From Campylobacteraceae bacterium (lineage in GTDB: Bacteria; Campylobacterota; Campylobacteria; Campylobacterales; Arcobacteraceae): a stretch of 49,997 nucleotides of DNA. The position numbers were made by a program, and so were the translations under genes. Positions 834 through 17,508 of the stretch are shown here, in pieces (within the stretch, counting starts at the first letter, position 1; the number at the start of each line of letters is the position of its first letter). The notes below the pieces were generated by a model. That model was not told where the DNA came from and did not search any database. It worked only from the letters and a program-made list of their open reading frames with translations. Location: positions 1 to 49,997 of the forward strand of contig JABSOL010000004.1 of assembly GCA_013215985.1 (NCBI GenBank), given 5' to 3'.

Positions 834-2534
834 TTATTTACTAATCGTCATTAATGGATCAACTAGTCCGATTCCATACATACCAATCATACCAATTATA
901 CCAGCAAGTAAACAATAATAAATTGTAGGAATAATAGTTCTTCTTAAAGTATCACCCTCTTGATCTAATAAACCAACAGTAGCAGATGCTGCAACAACAT
1001 TATGAATTGCAATCATATTACCAGCTGCCGCGCCAACTGCTTGAAGAGCTACCATAAATGCAGTAGATAAACCTAAAGCATCAGCAACACCAAATTGGTA
1101 CTGAGATAACATCATATTAGAAACAGTATTACTTCCTGCAATAAATGCTCCTAAAGCTCCAACAAGTGGTGCAAATAATGGATAAATATCACCCATAGAA
1201 GCAGCAACATAATTAGCCATAGCAACAGGCATAGAATCAAATCCAGCTCCATTAATTCCAGAGTTAATTAGAATTCTTACTAATGGAATAGTAAATACAA
1301 GTACAAAACCAGCACCTAACATTACTCTTGAAGACTCTCCAACAGCTGCTTTAATTTCACCAAATTTCATACCATGTAAGAAATAAGTTAAAAGAACAAC
1401 AAATACTAAGATACCACCTGGTAAGTATAAAGGAACAATTGAATAAGAAATACCTTCACCTAAAATATCTTTGAAAGGAATTACCCAACCTTTAACGAAT
1501 GCTTTAACATCATCAGATACTCTTGTTAATACTAAAATTAAAGCTACAAGAACATAAGGAATCCAAGCTTTAGTTAAAGACATAGGAACTTTTTCAGTCA
1601 TAGCATCAAGTTTCATCTCAAATTTACTTACCCAATGAACTGGCCATTTTTCTCTTGGTGCAAAATCCCAAGTATCTTTAGGTACTAAGAAACCTTTTTT
1701 AGCAGCAAATGTAACAATTGGTAAACCAATTAATGCTCCGATTAATGATGGGAACTCAGCTCCTAAATAAACACCAGTTAATGCGTAAGGAATTGTAAAC
1801 GCTAAACCACCAAAGATTGCAAAAGGAACAATTGATAAACCTTCAGTCCAAGATTTATTTTGACCAAAGAATCTAGTCATCATAACAATCATAAACAATG
1901 GAATCATTGTTCCAATAACAGCATGAACAATTGCAACTTCTGAAATAATAATTTGTAAGTATTGATCCCATGAAGAACCTACTGAACTTAAAGTAGCTCC
2001 AATACCATCTGAATCTAAACCTTTGTTAACACCAATTAAAATTGGAGTTCCAACTGCACCAAATGATACAGGAGTTGATTGAATCATCATACCAATCATA
2101 ACAGCAGCCATTGCAGGGAAACCAATTGCTACCATTAATGGTGCAGCAATTGCAGCTGGTGTTCCAAATCCTGAAGCACCTTCGATAAATGAACCAAATA
2201 ACCAAGCAATAATAATTACTTGAATTCTTCTATCTGGTGAAACATTATTAAAACCTTGTCTAATTACAGCAATTGCACCTGAGTGTTTTAAAGTATTTAG
2301 AAGTAAAATTGCTCCAAATATAATCCATAAAACTGCAACTGTAATAAGAAGACCTTGAATTGAAGAAGCTAAAATTCTATTAAAAGAAACTTCCCATACT
2401 AAATAAGCAACTAATGAAGTTACTACATAAACAGCTGGCATTGCTTTTTTTGCAGGTAATCTAAAACCTACTAAAAGAACAGCTGCAACGATTATTGGTA
2501 AAGCGGCACAAAGTGCTTGTAAACTGATATCCAT
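834..2534 (-). CDS. lldP: L-lactate permease (LctP family)
   Basis: [36 protein letters not shown]..., multi-TM; RBS aaggag before the internal ATG at 2534 (ORF track extends to 2606). Confidence 0.9.
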
Positions 2535-2726
2535 AAATATCTCCTTGTTAATTACCTTATGATATTCTAATCCTATGATAATGCTATGATAAAAATAACA
2601 TAGCATTAAAATAGCATTTAGAAAGAAGACAGTGAGAAAGAAGGTAACATTTAATTTTTTTTAATCTTATTAATTTAAATCACATTTTTAACATACTATA
2701 ATGTAAAAAAGATATAAAGGTAGACG

Positions 2727-3164
2727 TTGAACAACTTTCAATACGCATTAAATAGATTTATTAAAACAGGAATTACTTTATTTTTATTATATTTAATATT
2801 CACAAATTTTTTAGCTTTCATAGGAGTTATATTTTTTATTGGTGTTTTATTTTATTTTTTAGTATATAAAAGATTAAAAAAGATGTCAAAAGGATTTAAA
2901 TTTCAATTTAACCAAGCAGACTTTCAAAATGCAAACTTTCATCAAGGTGGACATCAATCAAGTTTTTCTCAAAAGCCTCAAATGGATGAAGTTCAAAAAG
3001 CAAAAAACTTTTTCTCTTTTACTCACGATCCAACAAAAGAAGATATTAAAAAGAAATATAAAGAATTAGCTAGAAAATATCATCCAGATATTAATGATCA
3101 TGGTGATGAATTAATGAAAGAATTAAATCATCATAAAGATGTATTAATGCAAACTTTTGCATAA
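2727..3164 (+). CDS. Membrane-anchored DnaJ-domain protein
   Basis: N-terminal TM, C-terminal J domain with HPD motif (ARKYHPDINDH); TTG start. Confidence 0.8.
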   Translation: MNNFQYALNRFIKTGITLFLLYLIFTNFLAFIGVIFFIGVLFYFLVYKRLKKMSKGFKFQFNQADFQNANFHQGGHQSSFSQKPQMDEVQKAKNFFSFTHDPTKEDIKKKYKELARKYHPDINDHGDELMKELNHHKDVLMQTFA

Positions 3165-3173
3165 AAATAAATC

Positions 3174-3668
3174 TTGTTTATAATTCAATTAAAAAAGATC
3201 TTTTTGATAATAATATTATTATCAAGTTCTTTTTTATTTTACTCACTTTATAAAAACTATCTCTTCGACAATAATGTTTTAAATGAAAAGATTATTAATC
3301 AAATTAAAATTAAAGAACTATATTTAAAAAAACTTGTTTTACAAAAATTTAATATACATGTTAATTTTCCAATAATAATATCTAATAATTTAAATGGAAA
3401 TCTTTTTGGCTTAGCTTCTTATGGTGAAAATGAAGATATTAAAATTGTTTTAAATAAAAAAAGATTTAAAGAAAGTTTAGATTATATGATAAATGATGTT
3501 TTACCTCATGAATATGCTCATGCTATGATTTTTAAATTAAAGATTTATTCAAATGAAGATAAAGGTCACTCAAAAGCTTGGATTAAAATGTGTAAAATAC
3601 TAGAAGGTTTAAAGTGCGAGAGATTTGTAAATAATGCAGATATTGTTTTTGGAAAAACTAAGTTCTAA
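3174..3668 (+). CDS. SprT-like zinc metallopeptidase-domain protein
   Basis: HEYAHAMIFKLKIYSNEDKGHSKAWIKMCKILEG (HExxH plus downstream H); TTG start. Confidence 0.7.
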   Translation: MFIIQLKKIFLIIILLSSSFLFYSLYKNYLFDNNVLNEKIINQIKIKELYLKKLVLQKFNIHVNFPIIISNNLNGNLFGLASYGENEDIKIVLNKKRFKESLDYMINDVLPHEYAHAMIFKLKIYSNEDKGHSKAWIKMCKILEGLKCERFVNNADIVFGKTKF

Positions 3669-3966: not shown

Positions 3967-4040
3967 AATTTTCCTATCTATTAAAAATGTAATGTACAAA
4001 ATATAAGTTTATAGCTTACTTAAGTGTAAACTTTATGAAC

Positions 4041-5003
4041 TTATTTACTTAAGTTTTTTGCAAAACTTAATAAGTCTTCATTTATTTCTGCTTTATAAGA
4101 ATTAACTTCTTTTAAGTCAAGAAATTTAAATTTAGAATTTTTATATACTATTACTTTTTTTAAATTGTCTTTTTTTATTAATTTATTTATACTTTTAACT
4201 ACAAATAGATTAGCCATTAGCCTATCATATGAACTAGGTGTTCCACCTCTTTGAATATATCCTAAAACTAAAAGTCTTGTATCCATTTTTAAATCATTTG
4301 TAAATAAATCAACCATTTTAGTAGAAGCATCACTTCCTTCTGCAACAATTGCTAAAGTATAAACTCTTCCATCAAGAACTTCATTTAAAAGTCTGTTTTT
4401 TATACTTTCATAATCTGCTTTAATTTCAGGAATTATACATACCTCAGCACCAGAAGTAATAGCAGAGACCAAAGCCAAGTAACCAAAATCTCTTCCCATT
4501 GTTTCAATAACAAATGCTCTATTTAAAGAAGATGATGTATCTCTTATCTCATCTAAAGCTCTTGATATTACATTTAAACAAGTATCGACACCAAGTGAAT
4601 AAGAACTTTTATAAACGTCATTATCAATAGTAGAAGGAATTCCAACAACAGAAATATCAAATTCATTTGAGAATACTTCTATAGCTTTAAAAGAACCATT
4701 TCCACCTAAGACTATAAGTTTATTTATTCCGAATGCTTGCAAATTTTCAAAAGATAAAGCTCTATATTTTTTTTTAAAAAATCTTTTAGATCTAGACGTT
4801 CTAATTATTGTTCCACCTAAATGAGAAAGACCTGAAACATCTTCTATTTTTGCTTCTTTAATTTTAGAATCAATTAAACCTTCTAATCCTTCATAAATTA
4901 AAAATGGCCTAATATTATTATTTAAAGAATGTTCCACAAAAGCTTTGATTGCGGGGTTACTACCTGCACAATCTCCACCAGAGGACATTATTGCAATATT
5001 CAT
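4041..5003 (-). CDS. pfkA: 6-phosphofructokinase family protein
   Basis: SSGGDCAGSNPAI, GIPSTIDNDVYKSSYSLGVDT, ETMGRDFGYLAL, LGYIQRGGTPSSYDR motifs. Confidence 0.88.
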   Translation of the reverse strand: MNIAIMSSGGDCAGSNPAIKAFVEHSLNNNIRPFLIYEGLEGLIDSKIKEAKIEDVSGLSHLGGTIIRTSRSKRFFKKKYRALSFENLQAFGINKLIVLGGNGSFKAIEVFSNEFDISVVGIPSTIDNDVYKSSYSLGVDTCLNVISRALDEIRDTSSSLNRAFVIETMGRDFGYLALVSAITSGAEVCIIPEIKADYESIKNRLLNEVLDGRVYTLAIVAEGSDASTKMVDLFTNDLKMDTRLLVLGYIQRGGTPSSYDRLMANLFVVKSINKLIKKDNLKKVIVYKNSKFKFLDLKEVNSYKAEINEDLLSFAKNLSK

Positions 5004-5011
5004 TTTATTTC

Positions 5012-5653
5012 CTAATAGTTTTCTTTATCTTCAAACTCATCAGCACTAGCATATAACTCACTAGCCCAGACTTGATCATTTAATAAATCTTCGTCACTAA
5101 TAGCATCTGCTATATATACTAACTCTTCAGCATTAGATACTTCTTTAATAGCTAAAATATAAATCTCTTTAGCCCAAGCAGGATCATTTAATAAATCCAT
5201 ATCACATAAAGAATCAGCAATACAATAATAATCATAAGAACTTTTTGCTTTGCTTATACATTCATTATATAAAGTAGCTGCTATTTTTACATCATAAAAA
5301 CCATCATTCTTTTTAGCTAATTCATCTGCTAAGTTTCTTAAGTCTCTTAAGTTTGTAATCTTCTTAATTGTAATATCAAGTAACTCTTTAGCCCAATCTG
5401 TATCATTAAGACCAAATCTTTTACCAACAGAAAATGCTAATTCTTTATAATCTCTAAAATCTTCAGCTCTTTGACTCGCTTCATCAAATAAAGCTTCAGC
5501 TAATTCAACATTATTACCAAACTCATCAGAGCAAAATTTATTAGCCCAATAACATAAATTAACATTATGAGATAAATCTGTAACTATTTTTTTGATATTA
5601 GAATCTAAAGCATATCTATTTTTTATTTCATCTAATAGTTTTTCATCACGCAT
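5012..5653 (-). CDS. Repeat-containing hypothetical protein
   Basis: Tandem about 37-aa units, e.g. LLNDPAWAKEIYILAIKEVSNAEELVYIADAISDED / LLNDQVWASELYASADE. Confidence 0.7.
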   Translation of the reverse strand: MRDEKLLDEIKNRYALDSNIKKIVTDLSHNVNLCYWANKFCSDEFGNNVELAEALFDEASQRAEDFRDYKELAFSVGKRFGLNDTDWAKELLDITIKKITNLRDLRNLADELAKKNDGFYDVKIAATLYNECISKAKSSYDYYCIADSLCDMDLLNDPAWAKEIYILAIKEVSNAEELVYIADAISDEDLLNDQVWASELYASADEFEDKENY

Positions 5654-5820: not shown

Positions 5821-5905
5821 GCCCGTATGGTGAAATTGGTAAACACGTCGGATTCAAAATCCGATGCTTCACGGCTTCTCGGTTCAATTCCGAGTATGGG
5901 TACCA
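5821..5905 (+). tRNA. tRNA-Leu (anticodon CAA), CCA encoded
   Basis: gcccgta...tatgggt acceptor stem, anticodon loop ttCAAaa in tcgga/tccga stem, T-loop ggttcaattcc, 3' acca. Confidence 0.93.
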
Positions 5906-5914
5906 CCTAAATAA
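5900..5914 (+). repeat. Putative att site (direct repeat copy 1)
   Basis: gtaccacctaaataa, overlapping tRNA-Leu 3' end; identical 15-mer at 17494. Confidence 0.6.
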
Positions 5915-6090: not shown

Positions 6091-6524
6091 TCAATCTAAA
6101 TTCAACTTAGATTCACCCTCAAGTAAAATTCTAAAGTTAAAATGTTCAGTCACTTCTTTAAATGACTATACGTATATCTCATGGCATAATTATCTAACAC
6201 TTGTATCTGTACTTCATCGTGAATATTAGCTACGAACTCATAACCATCAACACCTAACGGTATCTCTTTCATTAAGTTCTTGTCTAACGCCACTAAATAT
6301 TGCTTCATAACTAAAACTCCGGCACTCTGTAGTAACACATTTAATGTACTGTGAGCAATTCTAATCTTTAATATTCTTCCATCAAGTCCTTTGATATACT
6401 TTTGGTCTTTATCTTTCTCTGCTACAGCCTCTCGTAGGTCTGTAAGTGCAGGTAATGAACTCAAGAATCTCTCTTTAATCAACCACCCATCAATCGCATA
6501 ACATATTATTTCTCTTATTTTCAT
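6091..6524 (-). pseudogene. T7-like family-A DNA polymerase, C-terminal remnant with frameshift
   Basis: KERFLSSLPALTDLREAV..KYIKGLDGRILKIRIAHSTLNVLLQSAGVLVMKQ..VANIHDEVQIQV matches T7 gp5 C-terminus; after a frameshift near 6150-6165 the sequence continues as FKEVTEHFNFRILLEGESKLNLD* to 6091. Confidence 0.8.
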
Positions 6525-7129: not shown

Positions 7130-8233
7130 CTACGTTAATATAGGCTCTCTACCGATTATTAGACTATAATTCTTTGTTATCGATTGTCTAAGTTTATGTT
7201 CTAATTCTTTCTTTACTATGTAGCTATCATGAACTGTAAGAACTACTTGATTATCTTTTGTAAACTCTTCAATCACATTCATACAAACTCTTGAATCTAA
7301 GTAGTGTAAATCTAATCCTCTTCCTTGAAAGAACCACTCATCAGCAATAACTTTATAATGTTCATAACAGTCTAATACAAGTCCCTTGAGGTAACTTCTT
7401 TCACAATCTTTATACTTATCAAGTAGTGCTTTAACAGTGCGTTCAACACCTTGTGCATAACTTCTAACTCCATCTCCTATATTGAACATCATATTGATTG
7501 TATCTTTTACAAGTGCTCTAGGATAATCTTTAATAATATACAAGTCTCCTGAAGCATCTATCTTTGATAACTGTAGAACAATCCTAAGTGAACAGTTAGC
7601 AATATCAACCTCTACAGTTTCAACATCATTAATAGTTATTGTTGCTCTTTTATATGACTTACAGCTCTGCCAATGACCTACATAAATCCTACCATGTTTC
7701 TTCAAGTCATTTATATATGTTCTCTTAACTTTTATTCTTTCATAGATTCTTTTACCATCTATTTTGAGTTTAATCCAAGGTGAACTTAGTAACTCCGTGT
7801 ATCTTTTAAGAATAGCTCTATCTTTGTGAGTTTTCTCATTATCATCATAATCTGCAAGTACTTTAGAACGTTTAAGCTCTATTGGTTCATTGTCTCTATG
7901 TAGCGTTATGTCTGCTAAACTAATCTCATACTCATTAATTAAATCCATTAATTTAGAAGTCACTATAAACTCAGACCTAACGTCTACCCGAGGGCCTCTA
8001 GGAGCCTTATACAAGTGTATGTATTCATTATCTGCTAACCATTTAATAACATTGTAGAACACACAGTAAGTCAATCCTACGGGGTTGTATCTATCAGGTA
8101 TTGTGGAGTTATTCTTATCTAAAGATACAGTTATATACGTTCTTGATGACATCACACTTTGAATACTGTTACATAAGATATTCTTTAATGTATCCTCGTA
8201 TTGCTGTGTTGTAGTTTTGTATCTGATTAGCAT
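7130..8233 (-). CDS. Divergent family-A DNA polymerase-like protein of mobile elements
   Basis: Motif A-like VEVDIANCSLRIVLQL, motif B-like RALVKDTINMMFNIGDG, motif C-like VLTVHDSYIV; frame is open upstream of the ATG (..SPEIQYITEDILEVAIESM), so the 5' end may be truncated. Confidence 0.6.
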   Translation of the reverse strand: MLIRYKTTTQQYEDTLKNILCNSIQSVMSSRTYITVSLDKNNSTIPDRYNPVGLTYCVFYNVIKWLADNEYIHLYKAPRGPRVDVRSEFIVTSKLMDLINEYEISLADITLHRDNEPIELKRSKVLADYDDNEKTHKDRAILKRYTELLSSPWIKLKIDGKRIYERIKVKRTYINDLKKHGRIYVGHWQSCKSYKRATITINDVETVEVDIANCSLRIVLQLSKIDASGDLYIIKDYPRALVKDTINMMFNIGDGVRSYAQGVERTVKALLDKYKDCERSYLKGLVLDCYEHYKVIADEWFFQGRGLDLHYLDSRVCMNVIEEFTKDNQVVLTVHDSYIVKKELEHKLRQSITKNYSLIIGREPILT

Positions 8234-8811: not shown

Positions 8812-10314
8812 TTAAAAGCAAAAAGTTGCCAACGTAAATATTGCAAAGTAAGATACTAGTGTCACATTCCAATATTCATTATATTTTTCGATTTGATTAT
8901 TAATAAATATATTATTATTTTCTTCAAAGTTATTTAGCTCAAAAATTTGTGCTAAATCATTTTTATCTAAAAGTTCACTATATTGTATTTTTAGTTGATT
9001 ATATTGACCAAATAATCTTTTTTTCTTTTCTTCAATTTCAGATATATTGAATTTTTTAAATAAAAACATAGCTATTAAAACAGAACTTAAAAATAGATAA
9101 ATATCAACACTAAATACATTAATATCAACCGTGGAAGAGCCTTTAATTATTTTTAGTAAAATAATACTTATGAATAAAGTTGCTAAAGTATAAAAACTTG
9201 CTCTAAATGAATTTGATAAATCATGTACGATATCATCAAATTTACTTGATAAACCAAATAAGGTATCAGTAATTTTATTTTTCATATCAATATATTTTTT
9301 TACATTTATGTTATAGTTTGATTTTATAGAACTAAGAATACTTCCTTTTATTTTTGTAAAATCATTATCAACTATATGCAAAGATATCACATTTCTAGCA
9401 AGTCCAATTTTGTCAGAAATACTTGAATTTGAATTAAATACTTCTTCGTAACTATAAAAATATTCATCTATTTCACTTATATCCAATTTACTAAATTCAT
9501 ACTCGTTCTTTAATGTTTTATATCCATACATTTTATAGGATAGAATATTTTCTTTAAATTCACTAATATCGGCAAAAACACTTAATACTAGAGATAATGA
9601 AAGTTTATTAAATAATATAAGCAATGAATCATTATTTGGCTTACTTCTAAAATAAAAATCTTCTGCAAGATATTTAATTTTAGAGATATTAGCAAAATGA
9701 GAATTTTCATTTATCTTAGAATGTTTATTAATTTTACATTCTTTTTTAGAATCAAGTTTTTTCAAGATATTACTTGTTCTATTTTCAAAATCTTCTGAAT
9801 CAACAAAAATAAAATTATCTGTGTAAAAACAGTGATTTTCCCCATCTATTATTTTAAATTTTTCAGTTGTGTTAAAGAATAAATCAAATATATATTCAAT
9901 GTTATTTTTTTCATTTAAAGAACTTACAAGAAAATTCATAGAATAAATTGAAGTATAATCTGATTCTTCAATAGATTTATCTATCAAAATTTTAATTTTG
10001 CCTTTAATATCTTCATATTCATGATTATAGTTATAGCTTGTAAGCTCACTAAGAGTAGAAAACGATAAGATCGAGTCATCAGTTTCATCAAGAATTGATA
10101 TTTTTAATCTATCATTTGTATCTACAGTTTCAAAAAATGGATTAAATAGGGGCATATACTCATTGATAGAAGACAAAAATGCATGAACTTCTATATCTTT
10201 TATGTAAATAATTAATGAGTCAAAGTCTTCAAATATATCTTTTTCTTCACCAAGACTTGTGAAGTTCTTTATATGTTTTTCAAGATTTTGAATATTCTTT
10301 TTTGAATTCATCAT
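8812..10314 (-). CDS. Hypothetical protein with C-terminal TM segments, second gene of a two-gene cassette
   Basis: 500 aa; TM-like ASFYTLATLFISIILLKII and VDIYLFLSSVLIAMFLF; overlaps the upstream gene. Confidence 0.75.
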   Translation of the reverse strand: MMNSKKNIQNLEKHIKNFTSLGEEKDIFEDFDSLIIYIKDIEVHAFLSSINEYMPLFNPFFETVDTNDRLKISILDETDDSILSFSTLSELTSYNYNHEYEDIKGKIKILIDKSIEESDYTSIYSMNFLVSSLNEKNNIEYIFDLFFNTTEKFKIIDGENHCFYTDNFIFVDSEDFENRTSNILKKLDSKKECKINKHSKINENSHFANISKIKYLAEDFYFRSKPNNDSLLILFNKLSLSLVLSVFADISEFKENILSYKMYGYKTLKNEYEFSKLDISEIDEYFYSYEEVFNSNSSISDKIGLARNVISLHIVDNDFTKIKGSILSSIKSNYNINVKKYIDMKNKITDTLFGLSSKFDDIVHDLSNSFRASFYTLATLFISIILLKIIKGSSTVDINVFSVDIYLFLSSVLIAMFLFKKFNISEIEEKKKRLFGQYNQLKIQYSELLDKNDLAQIFELNNFEENNNIFINNQIEKYNEYWNVTLVSYFAIFTLATFCF

Positions 10315-11389
10315 ATCCTTTCTCTGAATAAATTTTCAAATGTTTACCTTTAGAATCAGTATCAGGTATTATCTTTTTTCTAAGATTTTTTATTTCATCT
10401 TCAAGAGTTAAACTCATTGAAGAATCTAATTTTATTGTTTTTTTCATTTTGGATTTAATAACTTTCTTATCAATAGCAAAGTTTCCATCGAATAGTATAT
10501 TACCAGTCTTTGTCTTGTTTAAAGATTTCATTGAATTAATAATATTATCAATTTCAGATTGCCTATCATCTTGTTTTATTGCTTGAATATAATCTAATGT
10601 AGTAAAGTCACCCATAATACCAGTTATTGCACTATCGAATGTAAAAGACGGTGAACTTTTCATATATGCAATTAAACTATTTCTACAACTATAATAATCC
10701 ATCTTATTTTTTTCATAAAATTTATTTTTTAAAAATGAATCAAATTTACTAAATGCTCTATTTGTATTCTCATCATCTGTTGTAATTGCAACAACCTCTA
10801 AAAATTCATTCCACCAAAAACTTGCAGCTAAAGAACCTTTTGATTTTGTACTATCAGTAATTAAAGCTTTTCTATCATTTGACTTATTTGTAACAGAATC
10901 ATTTAATATAGGTATTATAATTGTTTTCAGCATATGTTCTTTTTCTGGAGTTGCTTTTTCCTTTTTAAAACTAGATTCCATTAATACATCTATAAAATGA
11001 ACTTTAGTAATTACAAAATACTTTTTACTATTGTTACTTGTAAAATGTGTTATTATCAAGCCACCTTTTTGTAGTTCACTATTTAAGTGTGCAATTTTCT
11101 TTTGAGCTGCTATCTCTTTTTTTAATAATCTATTTGCAATCATTGTAGCTTGCTTTATTTTTTCATCTGCTTCTGTATATTTTAATATATTATTTAAACA
11201 ATTTATAACTTCTGTTGATTGATTCTTTTCAATTTTATATTCTCTAATATCATCTTCATTATAAAGTTCAGATAAATGCTCTTTTATATAAAGCTCAACA
11301 TTTTTTTCAAGTTCAATTGTCGTTTGTCTTTCTATTTTGTTTGATTCAGTATCGATACTATAATAAGTTGAGAAATCAATATTAAACAT
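10280..11389 (-). CDS. Nucleoid-associated protein (NA37/YejK)-like hypothetical protein
   Basis: Layout GGLIITHF..YFVITKVHFIDVL...GSLAASFWWNEFLEVV...NRAFSKFDSFL resembles NA37 proteins; weak by eye. Confidence 0.5.
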   Translation of the reverse strand: MFNIDFSTYYSIDTESNKIERQTTIELEKNVELYIKEHLSELYNEDDIREYKIEKNQSTEVINCLNNILKYTEADEKIKQATMIANRLLKKEIAAQKKIAHLNSELQKGGLIITHFTSNNSKKYFVITKVHFIDVLMESSFKKEKATPEKEHMLKTIIIPILNDSVTNKSNDRKALITDSTKSKGSLAASFWWNEFLEVVAITTDDENTNRAFSKFDSFLKNKFYEKNKMDYYSCRNSLIAYMKSSPSFTFDSAITGIMGDFTTLDYIQAIKQDDRQSEIDNIINSMKSLNKTKTGNILFDGNFAIDKKVIKSKMKKTIKLDSSMSLTLEDEIKNLRKKIIPDTDSKGKHLKIYSEKGYDEFKKEYSKS

Positions 11390-11567: not shown

Positions 11568-11900
11568 TTACAGAAGAACTGGAATATTTTTTTCAATCCT
11601 TAACTCTTCTGCTTTCAACATATAATAGTAAATTTCCAATTCTTTATCATTAGCATTTTCAATAATATTTAGAATTTTCAATTTATAGTTCATATTTATC
11701 TTAATTTCTTTACCATTCATTAATAAACTTATGTCAATTTTCTCTTTTTCACATAATTTAAATAATTCTTTAAATGGGATACTTTGTCTACTTCTTATCT
11801 TACTTAAGTATGAGCTTTCAAGTCCCAATAAATCAGCAACTTCTCTATCTGTTTTAAGATCAAATACTTTTTTTATATTGTCATTATAGTTATATAATTT
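11568..11900 (-). CDS. CI-like repressor HTH protein (start uncertain)
   Basis: DREVADLLGLESSYLSKIRSRQSIPFKELFKLCEKEKIDISLLM; the frame upstream of the annotated ATG at 11828 encodes the HTH N-half but has no ATG/GTG/TTG start. Confidence 0.55.
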   Translation of the reverse strand, partial: KLYNYNDNIKKVFDLKTDREVADLLGLESSYLSKIRSRQSIPFKELFKLCEKEKIDISLLMNGKEIKINMNYKLKILNIIENANDKELEIYYYMLKAEELRIEKNIPVLL

Positions 11901-12103: not shown

Positions 12104-13303
12104 ATGTATGGACTTACAAAATTTACAAGAGAGATAGCAATTGATAAAGTTAATTTCCAAAAAAGGTTTTTAGAAAACAATTTTATTTTATTTGGAACAA
12201 CTTCAGTTGCTTTAAGTACCTTTGTTAAAAATGCTTATATTAATTCAAATAGATATATAGCAGAAGTAAATCATAGAGTTTGGTCTTTATATCATTATGC
12301 AAATAATAAAGGATTAAAAAATATCTTTGGAACTATTACCGTACCCAGTGTTTATCATAAAAAAATAAGTAATAGATATTACAACTCTAATTTTATCAAT
12401 GATATAAATCATACTCCAAAAGCTGGAGCTATTGAATTATCAAGAATGTTTAAAAGATTACTAGATTTAAGAGTGCTTAGAGATATCAATAAAGAAGACA
12501 AGTGTCACTTTAGAGTATATGAACCACATAAAGATGGAACTCCACATTTACATTTCTCTATGTTTGTTCCAGAGAATAAAGTTGAAGAAATAGTAGATAG
12601 ATTTAAAAAGTATTTTAAATTAAAATATAAAAACCTACAAGTTAAATTTGAAACTAATATTAATAATCCTGTTTCCTATTTGATGAAATATATTTTAAAA
12701 ACATTTGATGATTTAAGAAAAGCAGATGCTAAATTATCTGATTTATCACTTTGGTATATAAAGCACTCTATTACTAGATTTTATACAAGTAGAACATTAA
12801 TCTCCCTTGATGTTTATAGGTGCTTAAATGGTAGATATGACCTCTTAGAGCTAACACAAATGTATAAGAACAGAGAACTAATTGTTTATTTAGATACTGA
12901 TACTAATAAGATAGCTTCTATTGAAGATCACATAGGAATAATTTATACAAAAAAACATGTAACTATATGTGATATGAAAACAAACGCTACATTTAAATTG
13001 AAATATGAAAAAAGAAAAAGTTTAAAAAGCCCTATTATAAATATTGAAGGCATTGAATATATTTCAGTAGATGGAATATTAAAAGTATTTGATCCCATTA
13101 TTCCAGTTAAGAAAATGAGCAGTATGAACTTGTATCAACACTACTTAGATATTAATGAAGATATTGAGAATTATAATTTACACCATTATGGATTAGTTAA
13201 AAATGAAATGATTTCTAGAGAGCTTATTGTTGGTGAAGAAGTATTGGTTAGTGAATATAATTTGGGATTTGATTTTCCTGATAACTATGATATTCAATCG
13301 TAA
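12104..13303 (+). CDS. HUH-type rolling-circle replication initiator (phage GpA-like)
   Basis: HUH motif GTPHLHFSMFV and downstream Tyr/Lys motif VSYLMKYILKTFDD. Confidence 0.75.
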   Translation: MYGLTKFTREIAIDKVNFQKRFLENNFILFGTTSVALSTFVKNAYINSNRYIAEVNHRVWSLYHYANNKGLKNIFGTITVPSVYHKKISNRYYNSNFINDINHTPKAGAIELSRMFKRLLDLRVLRDINKEDKCHFRVYEPHKDGTPHLHFSMFVPENKVEEIVDRFKKYFKLKYKNLQVKFETNINNPVSYLMKYILKTFDDLRKADAKLSDLSLWYIKHSITRFYTSRTLISLDVYRCLNGRYDLLELTQMYKNRELIVYLDTDTNKIASIEDHIGIIYTKKHVTICDMKTNATFKLKYEKRKSLKSPIINIEGIEYISVDGILKVFDPIIPVKKMSSMNLYQHYLDINEDIENYNLHHYGLVKNEMISRELIVGEEVLVSEYNLGFDFPDNYDIQS

Positions 13304-13385
13304 GAACTTAGTTTTGATACTTTTTGAAAGTATATAAACACATATGGTGATTCCCCTGCTTAAACAGCAAAAAAAAGGATTTATA

Positions 13386-13559
13386 ATGTGTAACTATTTA
13401 AGAGTAAAGACAGTAGCAGAAAAAGTTGGTATTAGTAAAAGTACAATATGGCTTTGGGTTAAAGAGAATAAATTTCCTAAACCTATAAAAGTAAGTCCTC
13501 AAGTAAGTGTTTGGAATGAAGATAAAATTGAAGAATGGATGAATAATAAAGAACTTTAA
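13386..13559 (+). CDS. AlpA-family transcriptional regulator
   Basis: YLRVKTVAEKVGISKSTIWLWVKENKFPKPIKVSPQVSVWNEDKIEEWM. Confidence 0.85.
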   Translation: MCNYLRVKTVAEKVGISKSTIWLWVKENKFPKPIKVSPQVSVWNEDKIEEWMNNKEL

Positions 13560-13585: not shown

Positions 13586-14338
13586 CTATAAATTATTTAG
13601 TATTTTTACTAATTTATGAACAGTTGTAGAAGGATTATCTTTTTCTGGATTATGACTTGAACTATAGCTATTAAGTAATTTTTCTGCATTCTTAATTGCT
13701 GTATTTTGAAGACTAAGTAAAGTATTAAAAATATGTTTAGTATAATTTTTATCTTTTATATTTTTTTTATTTAGTTTTAAAAAAAGATGAGGATTTATTG
13801 TCTTTAGTTTTTTAATTAAACTTGTAGAAATTTCATCTCTTAAAATAGCTGTATTTCTATATTCAAAATGTAATAAATACCACAATTCAAAAGAATCATT
13901 TACATAAGCAACTTCTATATTAAAATTAGATTTTTTGCTTTTAGCATTATTTATTGCTAAATTAAAATCTTCTGCTTTATGCCCTCCTCCATTTACTCTT
14001 TCAATATCTCTATCTATTATTATCCATTTATGATTAAAGTCTTTATATGTTTTACCATTTTCATCTTTGTACTCTTTAAGTTTCTTTAATACACCAGAAG
14101 GATGAGTAATATCAAGGTGAGGAACAATAATAAAAGAATCTTGTGTAATTTTTTTATCTTTAATTAAATTATCAATTATTCTTTGAAAGTATGTTGGTGC
14201 TGATACACTATCTTCACAAGATAAAATTACATCAGGAACTTTATTTTTATTATTCTTTTTTCTATCAAAATCTTTTTGTTTCAGTTCTTTTTTTCTATTA
14301 TGGATTTTATCTGATCCATCTTGTCCTCTTCTTGCCAT
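13586..14338 (-). CDS. rloB: RloB-family protein (TOPRIM-like nuclease partner)
   Basis: MARRGQDGSDKIHNRK..., ILSCEDSVSAPTYFQ..., FELWYLLHFEY; start taken at MARRGQ just after the rloA stop. Confidence 0.75.
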   Translation of the reverse strand: MARRGQDGSDKIHNRKKELKQKDFDRKKNNKNKVPDVILSCEDSVSAPTYFQRIIDNLIKDKKITQDSFIIVPHLDITHPSGVLKKLKEYKDENGKTYKDFNHKWIIIDRDIERVNGGGHKAEDFNLAINNAKSKKSNFNIEVAYVNDSFELWYLLHFEYRNTAILRDEISTSLIKKLKTINPHLFLKLNKKNIKDKNYTKHIFNTLLSLQNTAIKNAEKLLNSYSSSHNPEKDNPSTTVHKLVKILNNL

Positions 14339-14339
14339 A

Positions 14340-15614
14340 TTAAAACTCAAACTTTCCAAGGTATGGAATTCCACCATATTTACCTTGAATATATTGTTTT
14401 TCAAAATCTTCTGTTTTTCTAACATCATTAAACTGAGCTAATGAGAATATATTTGTTGATGCATATTTATCTTTTTCAGTTAACCAAATTTGATCTCTTC
14501 TGAAAAGTGAAGAATTTAATAAATTTGTATCATGTGTTGCAAAAATCAATTGTGCATTTTTTGTATTAATACTGTCATTGTGAAATAACTTAATTAAATG
14601 TTTTGTAAGCATTGGATGTAAACTTGCATCAAGCTCATCAATAATTAAAATACTTCCTTCTCTTAGTGTATTTAAAATAGGAGCTGCAATACTAAAAAAC
14701 TTTCTTGTTCCTTTAGATTCTTCATTTTCTAATTCAAATATAATATTTCCAACTTCTTCATTTTTTTCATTATATTGTTTATGATAAGTATTCAATGAGA
14801 TTTTTGTAATACCACCATTCTTTTCAATTTGTTCTTGAACAGTAGCATCTAAACCCATTTCATTCATAGCCATTGATGACATTTTTTCTTCTTCTAACAC
14901 AATATCATCAATTCCAATATCAGCAGTTTTAACTAATGAAACAATTTCATTTTTAAAATTAATATCTTTCATATGATTCATAGAATACTGTGAATATGAT
15001 TCTTGCTTCATTCCATCAATAAAATTAAATTTTGAAAACCAATTTAATATACTTTTTGAAATTTCACCATCATTTTGATCACATTTCCAAATAAATAGTT
15101 GGTTAGAAGAAATATTTATTTTTGAATTCTTTTTATCAAAAAAAGTATAACCTTCTTTAAATTTATTTATATTTACATAATGTTCTTCTTCAACTTCTCT
15201 ATAAAAAAGTTTAGATTCTTTTCCTTTTTCATCTGCATATAACCATTCTGAATAAACAGTAGTAGCATCAAGTTCAAACCCATATCTATATTTCACTTCA
15301 TTAATAAAACATACAATTTCAAATGTACTTGAAGAATCTTGTGTTTCTGTACTTAGTCTAAAAGGAATATGAGGAAGTTTATCAGTTGATTGAATTACTT
15401 TACTTTTATTAAGTACAATTGAACTCATGAAAGACATAGCTTTTAAGAAGTTACTTTTCCCACTTGCATTTGCACCATAAATAACTGCACTTTTTAAAAG
15501 TTCATATTTTCTTACATGAAATGAATTACCTTCATCTTTTGAAGAAGTAGCCATAGAAAATGTAATTGTATCTTTAATAGATTTATAATTATTTACTGAA
15601 AATTGAAGTAACAA
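14340..15614 (-). CDS. rloA: RloA-family AAA ATPase
   Basis: LLQFSVNNYKSIKDTITFSM, Walker A GANASGKSNFLKAM, Walker B SILIIDELDASLHP, ATHD. Confidence 0.85.
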   Translation of the reverse strand: MLLQFSVNNYKSIKDTITFSMATSSKDEGNSFHVRKYELLKSAVIYGANASGKSNFLKAMSFMSSIVLNKSKVIQSTDKLPHIPFRLSTETQDSSSTFEIVCFINEVKYRYGFELDATTVYSEWLYADEKGKESKLFYREVEEEHYVNINKFKEGYTFFDKKNSKINISSNQLFIWKCDQNDGEISKSILNWFSKFNFIDGMKQESYSQYSMNHMKDINFKNEIVSLVKTADIGIDDIVLEEEKMSSMAMNEMGLDATVQEQIEKNGGITKISLNTYHKQYNEKNEEVGNIIFELENEESKGTRKFFSIAAPILNTLREGSILIIDELDASLHPMLTKHLIKLFHNDSINTKNAQLIFATHDTNLLNSSLFRRDQIWLTEKDKYASTNIFSLAQFNDVRKTEDFEKQYIQGKYGGIPYLGKFEF

Positions 15615-15856: not shown

Positions 15857-16993
15857 ATGAAAAGATGGATATGGGAACAAGAAAACTATCCCAATTTTAC
15901 TTATGATATGAATAAACTTGCAAATTTGATTGAAAAAATATCATTAGAACAAGGTTATTTAATAGCTATGAATGATGTATTACCAAAAGATATTATTATT
16001 CAAAAAAAATTAGAAGCATTAGAAAGTGAAGCTATTAGTACATCTGCCATTGAAGGTGAAGTTTTAAATAAAGACAGTGTTAAAGCAGCAATTAAAAGAA
16101 AACTTGGAATGGAAGATGTTGATTATAGAAAAATTGATGAATCAACTGATTATCTTATAGAAGTTTTAATAGATGCAAATACAAACTATGAAAATGATTT
16201 AACTATTGAAAGACTATTTGCTTGGCATAATGCATTGTTCCCTAGAGGATTTTCTGGGTTTAGAGAAATAAAGGTAGCTTCTCTTAGAGGTGAAGAGACA
16301 ATGGAAATTGTTTCAGGTCATGCAGGAAAAGAAAAAGTTTTTTATGTAGCACCACCCCGAAGTATTTTAGAAGAACACATAAATGATTTTATTACTTGGT
16401 TTAATAAAACTGAAGCATCATTACTTAAAGCTTGTATTTCTCATCTTTGGTTTGTAATCATTCATCCATTTGATGATGGTAATGGTAGAATAACAAGAGC
16501 TATTACAGATTTAGTATTATCAAAAATTGAGAAATCTAAAATCTCAAAACTTTATTCTATGTCAAGTATAATTAATAAAAATAGAAATGATTATTATAAA
16601 GCATTGGAAAGAACAACTGGTTATATTAAAAAACAAGATAATCATTTGGATATAACCATTTGGTGTGAATGGTTTTTAGAAACACTTTATTCTGCATTAC
16701 TTGATACTAAAAAAAAGCTAAGATTTATTATTGATAAAACTAAGTTTTGGGATAAATATAAAGATAACAATTTAAATGCTAGACAAACAAAAGTATTAAA
16801 TAAAATTCTTGATATTGGAATAGAAGATTTTATAGGTGGTCTATCTAAAAAGAAATATATGAAAATTGCTGATACAACTTCGAGTACTGCTTCTAGAGAT
16901 ATAAATGAATTAATAGATATTGGATGTCTAGAACAAATTGAAGGCACCGTCGGAAGAAATACTAATTATAAAATAAATATACCTTCTATTTAA
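15857..16993 (+). CDS. Fic family AMPylator with DUF4172 N-terminus and C-terminal winged-HTH
   Basis: HPFDDGNGR Fic motif; inhibitory-type TSAIEG motif; N-terminal WIWEQENYPNFTYD; C-terminal KIADTTSSTASRDINELIDIGCLEQ. Confidence 0.88.
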   Translation: MKRWIWEQENYPNFTYDMNKLANLIEKISLEQGYLIAMNDVLPKDIIIQKKLEALESEAISTSAIEGEVLNKDSVKAAIKRKLGMEDVDYRKIDESTDYLIEVLIDANTNYENDLTIERLFAWHNALFPRGFSGFREIKVASLRGEETMEIVSGHAGKEKVFYVAPPRSILEEHINDFITWFNKTEASLLKACISHLWFVIIHPFDDGNGRITRAITDLVLSKIEKSKISKLYSMSSIINKNRNDYYKALERTTGYIKKQDNHLDITIWCEWFLETLYSALLDTKKKLRFIIDKTKFWDKYKDNNLNARQTKVLNKILDIGIEDFIGGLSKKKYMKIADTTSSTASRDINELIDIGCLEQIEGTVGRNTNYKINIPSI

Positions 16994-17493: not shown

Positions 17494-17508
17494 GTACCAC
17501 CTAAATAA
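17494..17508 (+). repeat. Putative att site (direct repeat copy 2)
   Basis: gtaccacctaaataa, identical to 5900-5914. Confidence 0.6.

Follow-up and report, generated by a model that had tools for sequence, protein, structure and literature searches.

A divergent NA37-membrane protein gene pair in a Campylobacteraceae tRNA island is a probable anti-phage module

The RexAB system of phage lambda, which is carried on the prophage, combines a cytoplasmic sensor with a membrane effector. The gene pair described here, P1-P2, can be likened to RexAB in its proposed sensor and membrane effector layout. RexB has more transmembrane (TM) segments than P2, and the Pfam and PHROG results for P1 and P2 include neither RexA nor RexB. 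A second system with a comparable division of parts is Kiwa, in which the membrane protein KwaA is paired with the DNA-binding protein KwaB, which binds entering phage DNA without cleaving it (PMC12904381). P1-P2 resembles Kiwa in consisting of two genes, one for a membrane protein and one for a DNA-binding protein (for P1, a predicted property), and in occurring in defense islands. In contrast, the P1-P2 order is a soluble protein gene followed by a gene for a 500-aa membrane protein, whereas in the Kiwa locus of another Campylobacterota genome (L008) KwaA (194 aa) precedes KwaB (331 aa). The KwaB domain (PF16162) was absent from P1 and P2 in Pfam and PADLOC searches, and a KwaB family search of the genome that carries the pair was negative. 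We rejected an identity with Kiwa, since profile comparisons of P1 and P2 with KwaB were negative, the L008 Kiwa proteins showed no similarity, and no small KwaA gene lies upstream. The L008 pair itself (positions 1432 to 3008 of that locus) is a genuine Kiwa pair located beside HsdS- and HsdM-looking genes.

The other relevant background concerns the NA37 family. The nucleoid protein YejK influences topoisomerase activity (PMC10053502), and the NA37 homologue NdpA2 controls the transfer of the integrative and conjugative element (ICE) PAPI-1 in Pseudomonas aeruginosa (PMC8565334). According to the DefensePredictor report (Science 2026; PMC13092281), a YejK domain has been experimentally validated in an Escherichia coli anti-phage system; that system and P1-P2 would have an NA37/YejK domain in phage defense in common.

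The window, i.e., the whole 49,997-nucleotide stretch of DNA that was analyzed, contains P1 and P2 exactly where the first-pass annotation had described two overlapping minus-strand genes. P1 (10280 to 11389, 369 aa) and P2 (8812 to 10314, 500 aa) both begin with ATG and overlap by 35 bp (10280 to 10314), and a Shine-Dalgarno-like sequence (AGAAAGGAT) lies within P1, immediately 5' of the ATGATG of P2. The C-terminal TM segments that had been ascribed to the 500-aa protein were also recovered, since hydropathy analysis placed them at residues ~372 to 390 and ~400 to 418, near the C terminus. A third C-terminal hydrophobic helix was over the threshold in two P2 relatives and under it in the window P2, such that the overall layout is a large soluble N-terminal part followed by two to three TM segments. 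PADLOC, Pfam, and NCBIfam searches revealed no nuclease domain in P1 or P2. AlphaFold models of P1 and P2 built from two-sequence alignments were unusable (pLDDT of 36.6 and 45.9), so the fold assignments below derive from sequence comparison.

Pfam, NCBIfam, and PADLOC returned no credible family for P1 or P2, and P1 matched no model in PADLOC-DB 2.0.0, consistent with the earlier remark that the pair is not a recognized named system. PADLOC matches of P2 to ThsB (0.0019, ~50 residues) and Csm3 (0.013, ~96 residues) were attributed to chance, as was a match of P1 to PF24565. Both proteins did match PHROGs of unknown function, namely, phrog_30064 for P1 (1.7e-17) and phrog_32650 for P2 (5e-20). 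When the pair was compared to phages and plasmids by tblastn, only a Photobacterium locus was found; scans of viral contigs with the window, Sulfurospirillum, or Photobacterium sequences and a blastn search for the Photobacterium pair in E. coli gave no match. One weak Campylobacterota match (L003) was set aside after a reading of the locus revealed an unrelated gene cluster.

Closer relatives were nonetheless identifiable as pairs. In Sulfurospirillum sp. UBA12182, the two genes are adjacent, in the same order, and overlap by 14 bp, and their products are 63% (P1) and 55% (P2) identical to those of the window; this pair is flanked by HsdR on one side and by an Mrr/STAND NTPase (PADLOC candidate PDC-S60) and then an AlbA_2 protein. 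The Photobacterium pair, which is carried on a megaplasmid, is likewise adjacent and in the same order (28% and 23% identity), and its proteins match the same two PHROGs as the window pair. The short overlap or spacing is also kept in these relatives. Among 397 Campylobacterota genomes, strong matches to P1 and strong matches to P2 were confined to the same two genomes, the window's own included; the system is therefore rare in Campylobacterota, and its halves travel together. P1-P2 is a real conserved two-gene module.

The relationship of P1 to the NA37 family emerged through intermediates. The NA37 model (PF04245) did not match the window P1 at E ≤ 1 or either of its two relatives at E ≤ 10. 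A search with the Photobacterium P1 picked up solo genes in two related Campylobacterota genomes, and these are NA37 genes by PF04245 (2.9e-27 and 4.9e-27). BLASTP between the Photobacterium P1 and the solo protein with the 2.9e-27 match gave 4e-13; the direct comparison of the window P1 with the same solo protein was weak (0.026). In profile-versus-profile comparisons, P1 and NA37 aligned collinearly over 205 columns (E of 1.2e-4), and the score of 39.4, obtained with an NA37 profile that contains the two solo proteins, was exceeded by none of 60 decoys (mean, 14.9; maximum, 22.6). With the solo proteins removed from the profile, the score fell to 24.5 (E of 0.021) and still exceeded all 60 decoys (maximum, 20.1). 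In a tree, P1 and the solo NA37 proteins formed a group apart from the prophage NA37 clade, but their branches are very long. The solo genes (L028, 1399 to 2439; L029, 1195 to 2235) have no membrane partner adjoining them. The first-pass reading of P1 as an NA37-type protein is thus supported by transitive homology and profile comparison, but not by a direct Pfam match, and P1 is best described as a divergent relative of the NA37/YejK superfamily.

NA37 genes paired with a membrane protein gene turned out to occur more widely on mobile elements. A YejK search of plasmids led to an Acinetobacter baumannii record (CP040048) in which an NA37 gene (279641 to 280687; 4.3e-48) is separated by 2 bp from a downstream gene (278433 to 279638) whose 401-aa product has TM segments at its C-terminal end; QatA of the Qat system (3e-266) lies nearby. 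This membrane protein belongs to phrog_5023. A search with the membrane protein alone, in which no NA37 query was used, recovered a second PF04245 plus phrog_5023 pair on a Pseudoalteromonas arctica plasmid (NZ_CP011027, 50822 to 53061), another A. baumannii pair, and then 31 provirus loci, some of which are near-duplicates; such scans worked only with the A. baumannii-type partner. The NA37 gene lies directly upstream on the same strand in 27 of these 31 loci, and three of the remaining four end before the upstream sequence. The one real exception is L054, where the membrane partner (3980 to 5218) is preceded not by an NA37 gene but by an open reading frame for a LexA/CI-type repressor (2528 to 3199). 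Spacing between NA37 gene and partner ranged from -53 to +14 bp in 24 of the 26 loci with a full-length partner. Together with the window, Sulfurospirillum, and Photobacterium lineages, these loci strongly support the conserved pairing that had been proposed for a gene-neighborhood check. One A. baumannii locus (L025) has a third overlapping gene after the pair (8971 to 9603), encoding 210 aa with two hydrophobic stretches, and is perhaps a three-gene variant.

The settings of these pairs are varied. Genes for phage tails (like those of phage P2), tape-measure proteins, and head proteases flank the provirus loci. In L058, the gene immediately downstream of the module is SspE/GmrSD-like, and the Pseudoalteromonas pair has a type IV restriction gene of the HNH kind in its neighborhood. 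An association with defense islands or prophages is supported in several unrelated settings (PDC-S60/HsdR, Qat, type IV restriction, SspE-like, and phage tail genes, and AbiL plus Fic in the window). The PF04245 plus phrog_5023 pairs resemble P1-P2 in that the genes come in the same order and either adjoin or overlap slightly, the proteins are of like size with TM segments arranged toward the C terminus, the first protein is of the NA37 type, and the setting is one of defense genes or a prophage, although P1 and P2 have diverged too far from them for direct HMM recognition.

For P2, too, the link depended on profile comparison, as a direct PHROG search gave no match to phrog_5023. The P2 profile aligned with the membrane-partner family over 191 columns (E of 2e-5), confined to P2 residues 215 to 420, i.e., the middle and membrane parts. 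None of 60 decoys scored higher, and the margin was modest (47.1 versus a decoy mean of 22.1 and maximum of 40.4). The N-terminal parts did not align, that of P2 being longer and different. The most conserved residues of the partner family (F252, K254, R256, K257, E258, P285, N309, Q330, and E340 in A. baumannii numbering) flank the TM segments or lie between them. A comparable helix next to the membrane, likewise rich in lysine (NVKKYIDMKNK), is present in P2, which lacks a counterpart of the conserved P285.

The island that carries P1-P2 could be delimited in full. A tRNA-Leu(CAA) gene lies at 5821 to 5905, and a 15-bp att-like repeat on the plus strand (GTACCACCTAAATAA) occurs at its 3' end (5900 to 5914) and at the other edge of an 11.6-kb island (17494 to 17508), these being the only two copies in the 2.78-Mb genome. 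The same island encodes an AbiL/RloAB defense pair on the minus strand (13586 to 15614; PADLOC AbiLi, 1e-99; AbiLii, 9e-20) and a SoFic-like Fic protein on the plus strand (15857 to 16993), so the tRNA island with RloAB and Fic described in the first-pass annotation is present in all its elements. The CI-like helix-turn-helix (HTH) gene that had been placed upstream of the pair exists as a minus-strand open reading frame (11568 to 11828), but a role for it in the system did not hold up: its match to PF07022 is weak and below the cut-off, no ATG, GTG, or TTG precedes the HTH N terminus, and nothing similar was found upstream of the pair in relatives. We therefore rejected it as an operon member, and it probably lies outside the P1-P2 system. 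The frame may be truncated or may use a rare start codon. The island further contains a Phage_GPA/G2P-type Rep protein (12104 to 13303) and an HTH protein (13344 to 13559) named AlpA-like from a reading of its sequence. No recognizable integrase open reading frame was found between 5900 and 17508. Given the terminal repeats without an integrase, together with the Rep protein and the AlpA-like HTH, these features suggest a satellite-like or trans-mobilized element. At 6150 to 6524, a short open reading frame looks like the C terminus of a PolA-type phage polymerase (HDEVQIQ). A second frame, of 367 aa (7130 to 8233), carries a motif of the same kind (VHDSY) but matches no family significantly; both are possible phage replication remnants.

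Taken together, these data favor the view that P1-P2 is a divergent branch of an anti-phage module of the NA37-membrane type found on prophages, plasmids, and defense islands, to which we assign a probability of roughly 0.6. Because the pair is a branch of a module carried by many prophages and defense islands, it is probably an anti-virus system absent from PADLOC. We infer that P1 is the DNA-binding subunit and P2 the membrane effector or anchor. P1 would bind DNA and read something that infection alters, such as phage DNA, its replication, or its supercoiling, while P2, with a cytoplasmic soluble domain, would keep the complex at the inner membrane. Engagement of P1 would activate the membrane part of P2 and stop the infection, most likely through inner-membrane damage, i.e., abortive infection. 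That YejK affects topoisomerases makes DNA topology or replication a possible trigger, on which we can only speculate. If the module is indeed anti-phage and of the NA37-membrane type, a membrane-effector mechanism is somewhat favored; an active membrane part is preferred over a plain tether because the most conserved residues of the wider family adjoin or lie within the membrane part. The DNA sensor and membrane effector arrangement leading to abortive infection that had been envisaged at the outset is plausible.

Alternatively, the membrane protein might place NA37 at phage entry sites, where NA37 would coat the incoming DNA and halt its replication and transcription with neither cutting nor cell death. 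KwaA and KwaB split their roles alike (PMC12904381), NA37 proteins associate with the nucleoid and alter the activity of topoisomerases (PMC10053502), and P1 and P2 have no detected nuclease domain. Against this, P1 and P2 have no sequence or profile relation to KwaB, and the location of the wider family's most conserved residues, in the membrane part or adjoining it, suits an active effector better than a simple tether. Among mechanisms for an anti-phage NA37-membrane module, such a membrane-held block is possible if doubtful; as an explanation of the pair as a whole, we consider it unlikely.

It is less likely still that NA37 and its partner control, partition, or anchor the DNA of their own element without acting on phages. 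NA37 proteins do serve as plasmid and ICE regulators, as with NdpA2 and PAPI-1 (PMC8565334), yejK is present on many plasmids, and the modules are located on prophages, plasmids, and islands. Yet the hosts and elements are of unrelated replication type and carry other defense genes alongside, and the window island keeps the pair even though it has no recognizable integrase. Moreover, in two plasmid yejK neighborhoods of the wider YejK group (L020 and L021), no membrane partner is annotated beside yejK. A toxin-antitoxin module, with P2 as a membrane toxin kept inactive by P1, would fit the short overlap or spacing and the order of a soluble DNA-binding partner gene followed by a membrane gene, but it is improbable given that the proteins are large for such modules (~350 and 400 to 500 aa) and that the membrane partner was never found alone except in L054. 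Finally, that direct HMM searches fail and few members are known would be expected if the P1-NA37 and P2-phrog_5023 links were due to chance and the pair a rare two-gene system that is unrelated to the module and mechanistically distinct. This reading is equally improbable, as P1 and P2 lead independently to the two halves of a single module, with the gene order preserved and each score above all decoys, and BLAST bridges P1 to NA37.

With the anti-phage reading as the preferred one, a broader and more tentative proposal is that the NA37-membrane pairs form a widespread unnamed system in which a housekeeping-type NA37 protein that modulates the nucleoid and topoisomerases has been recruited as an infection sensor and joined to a dedicated membrane effector. 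Such a system would respond at the membrane to the topology or replication of phage DNA, and the window pair would be its second, deeply diverged lineage. The membrane protein could be the partner of the YejK domain that the DefensePredictor report places in defense (PMC13092281). NA37 proteins occur widely yet are poorly understood, and an NA37-membrane pair that is carried on dozens of prophages and absent from PADLOC may offer a concrete two-gene unit in which a nucleoid protein would act in phage defense.
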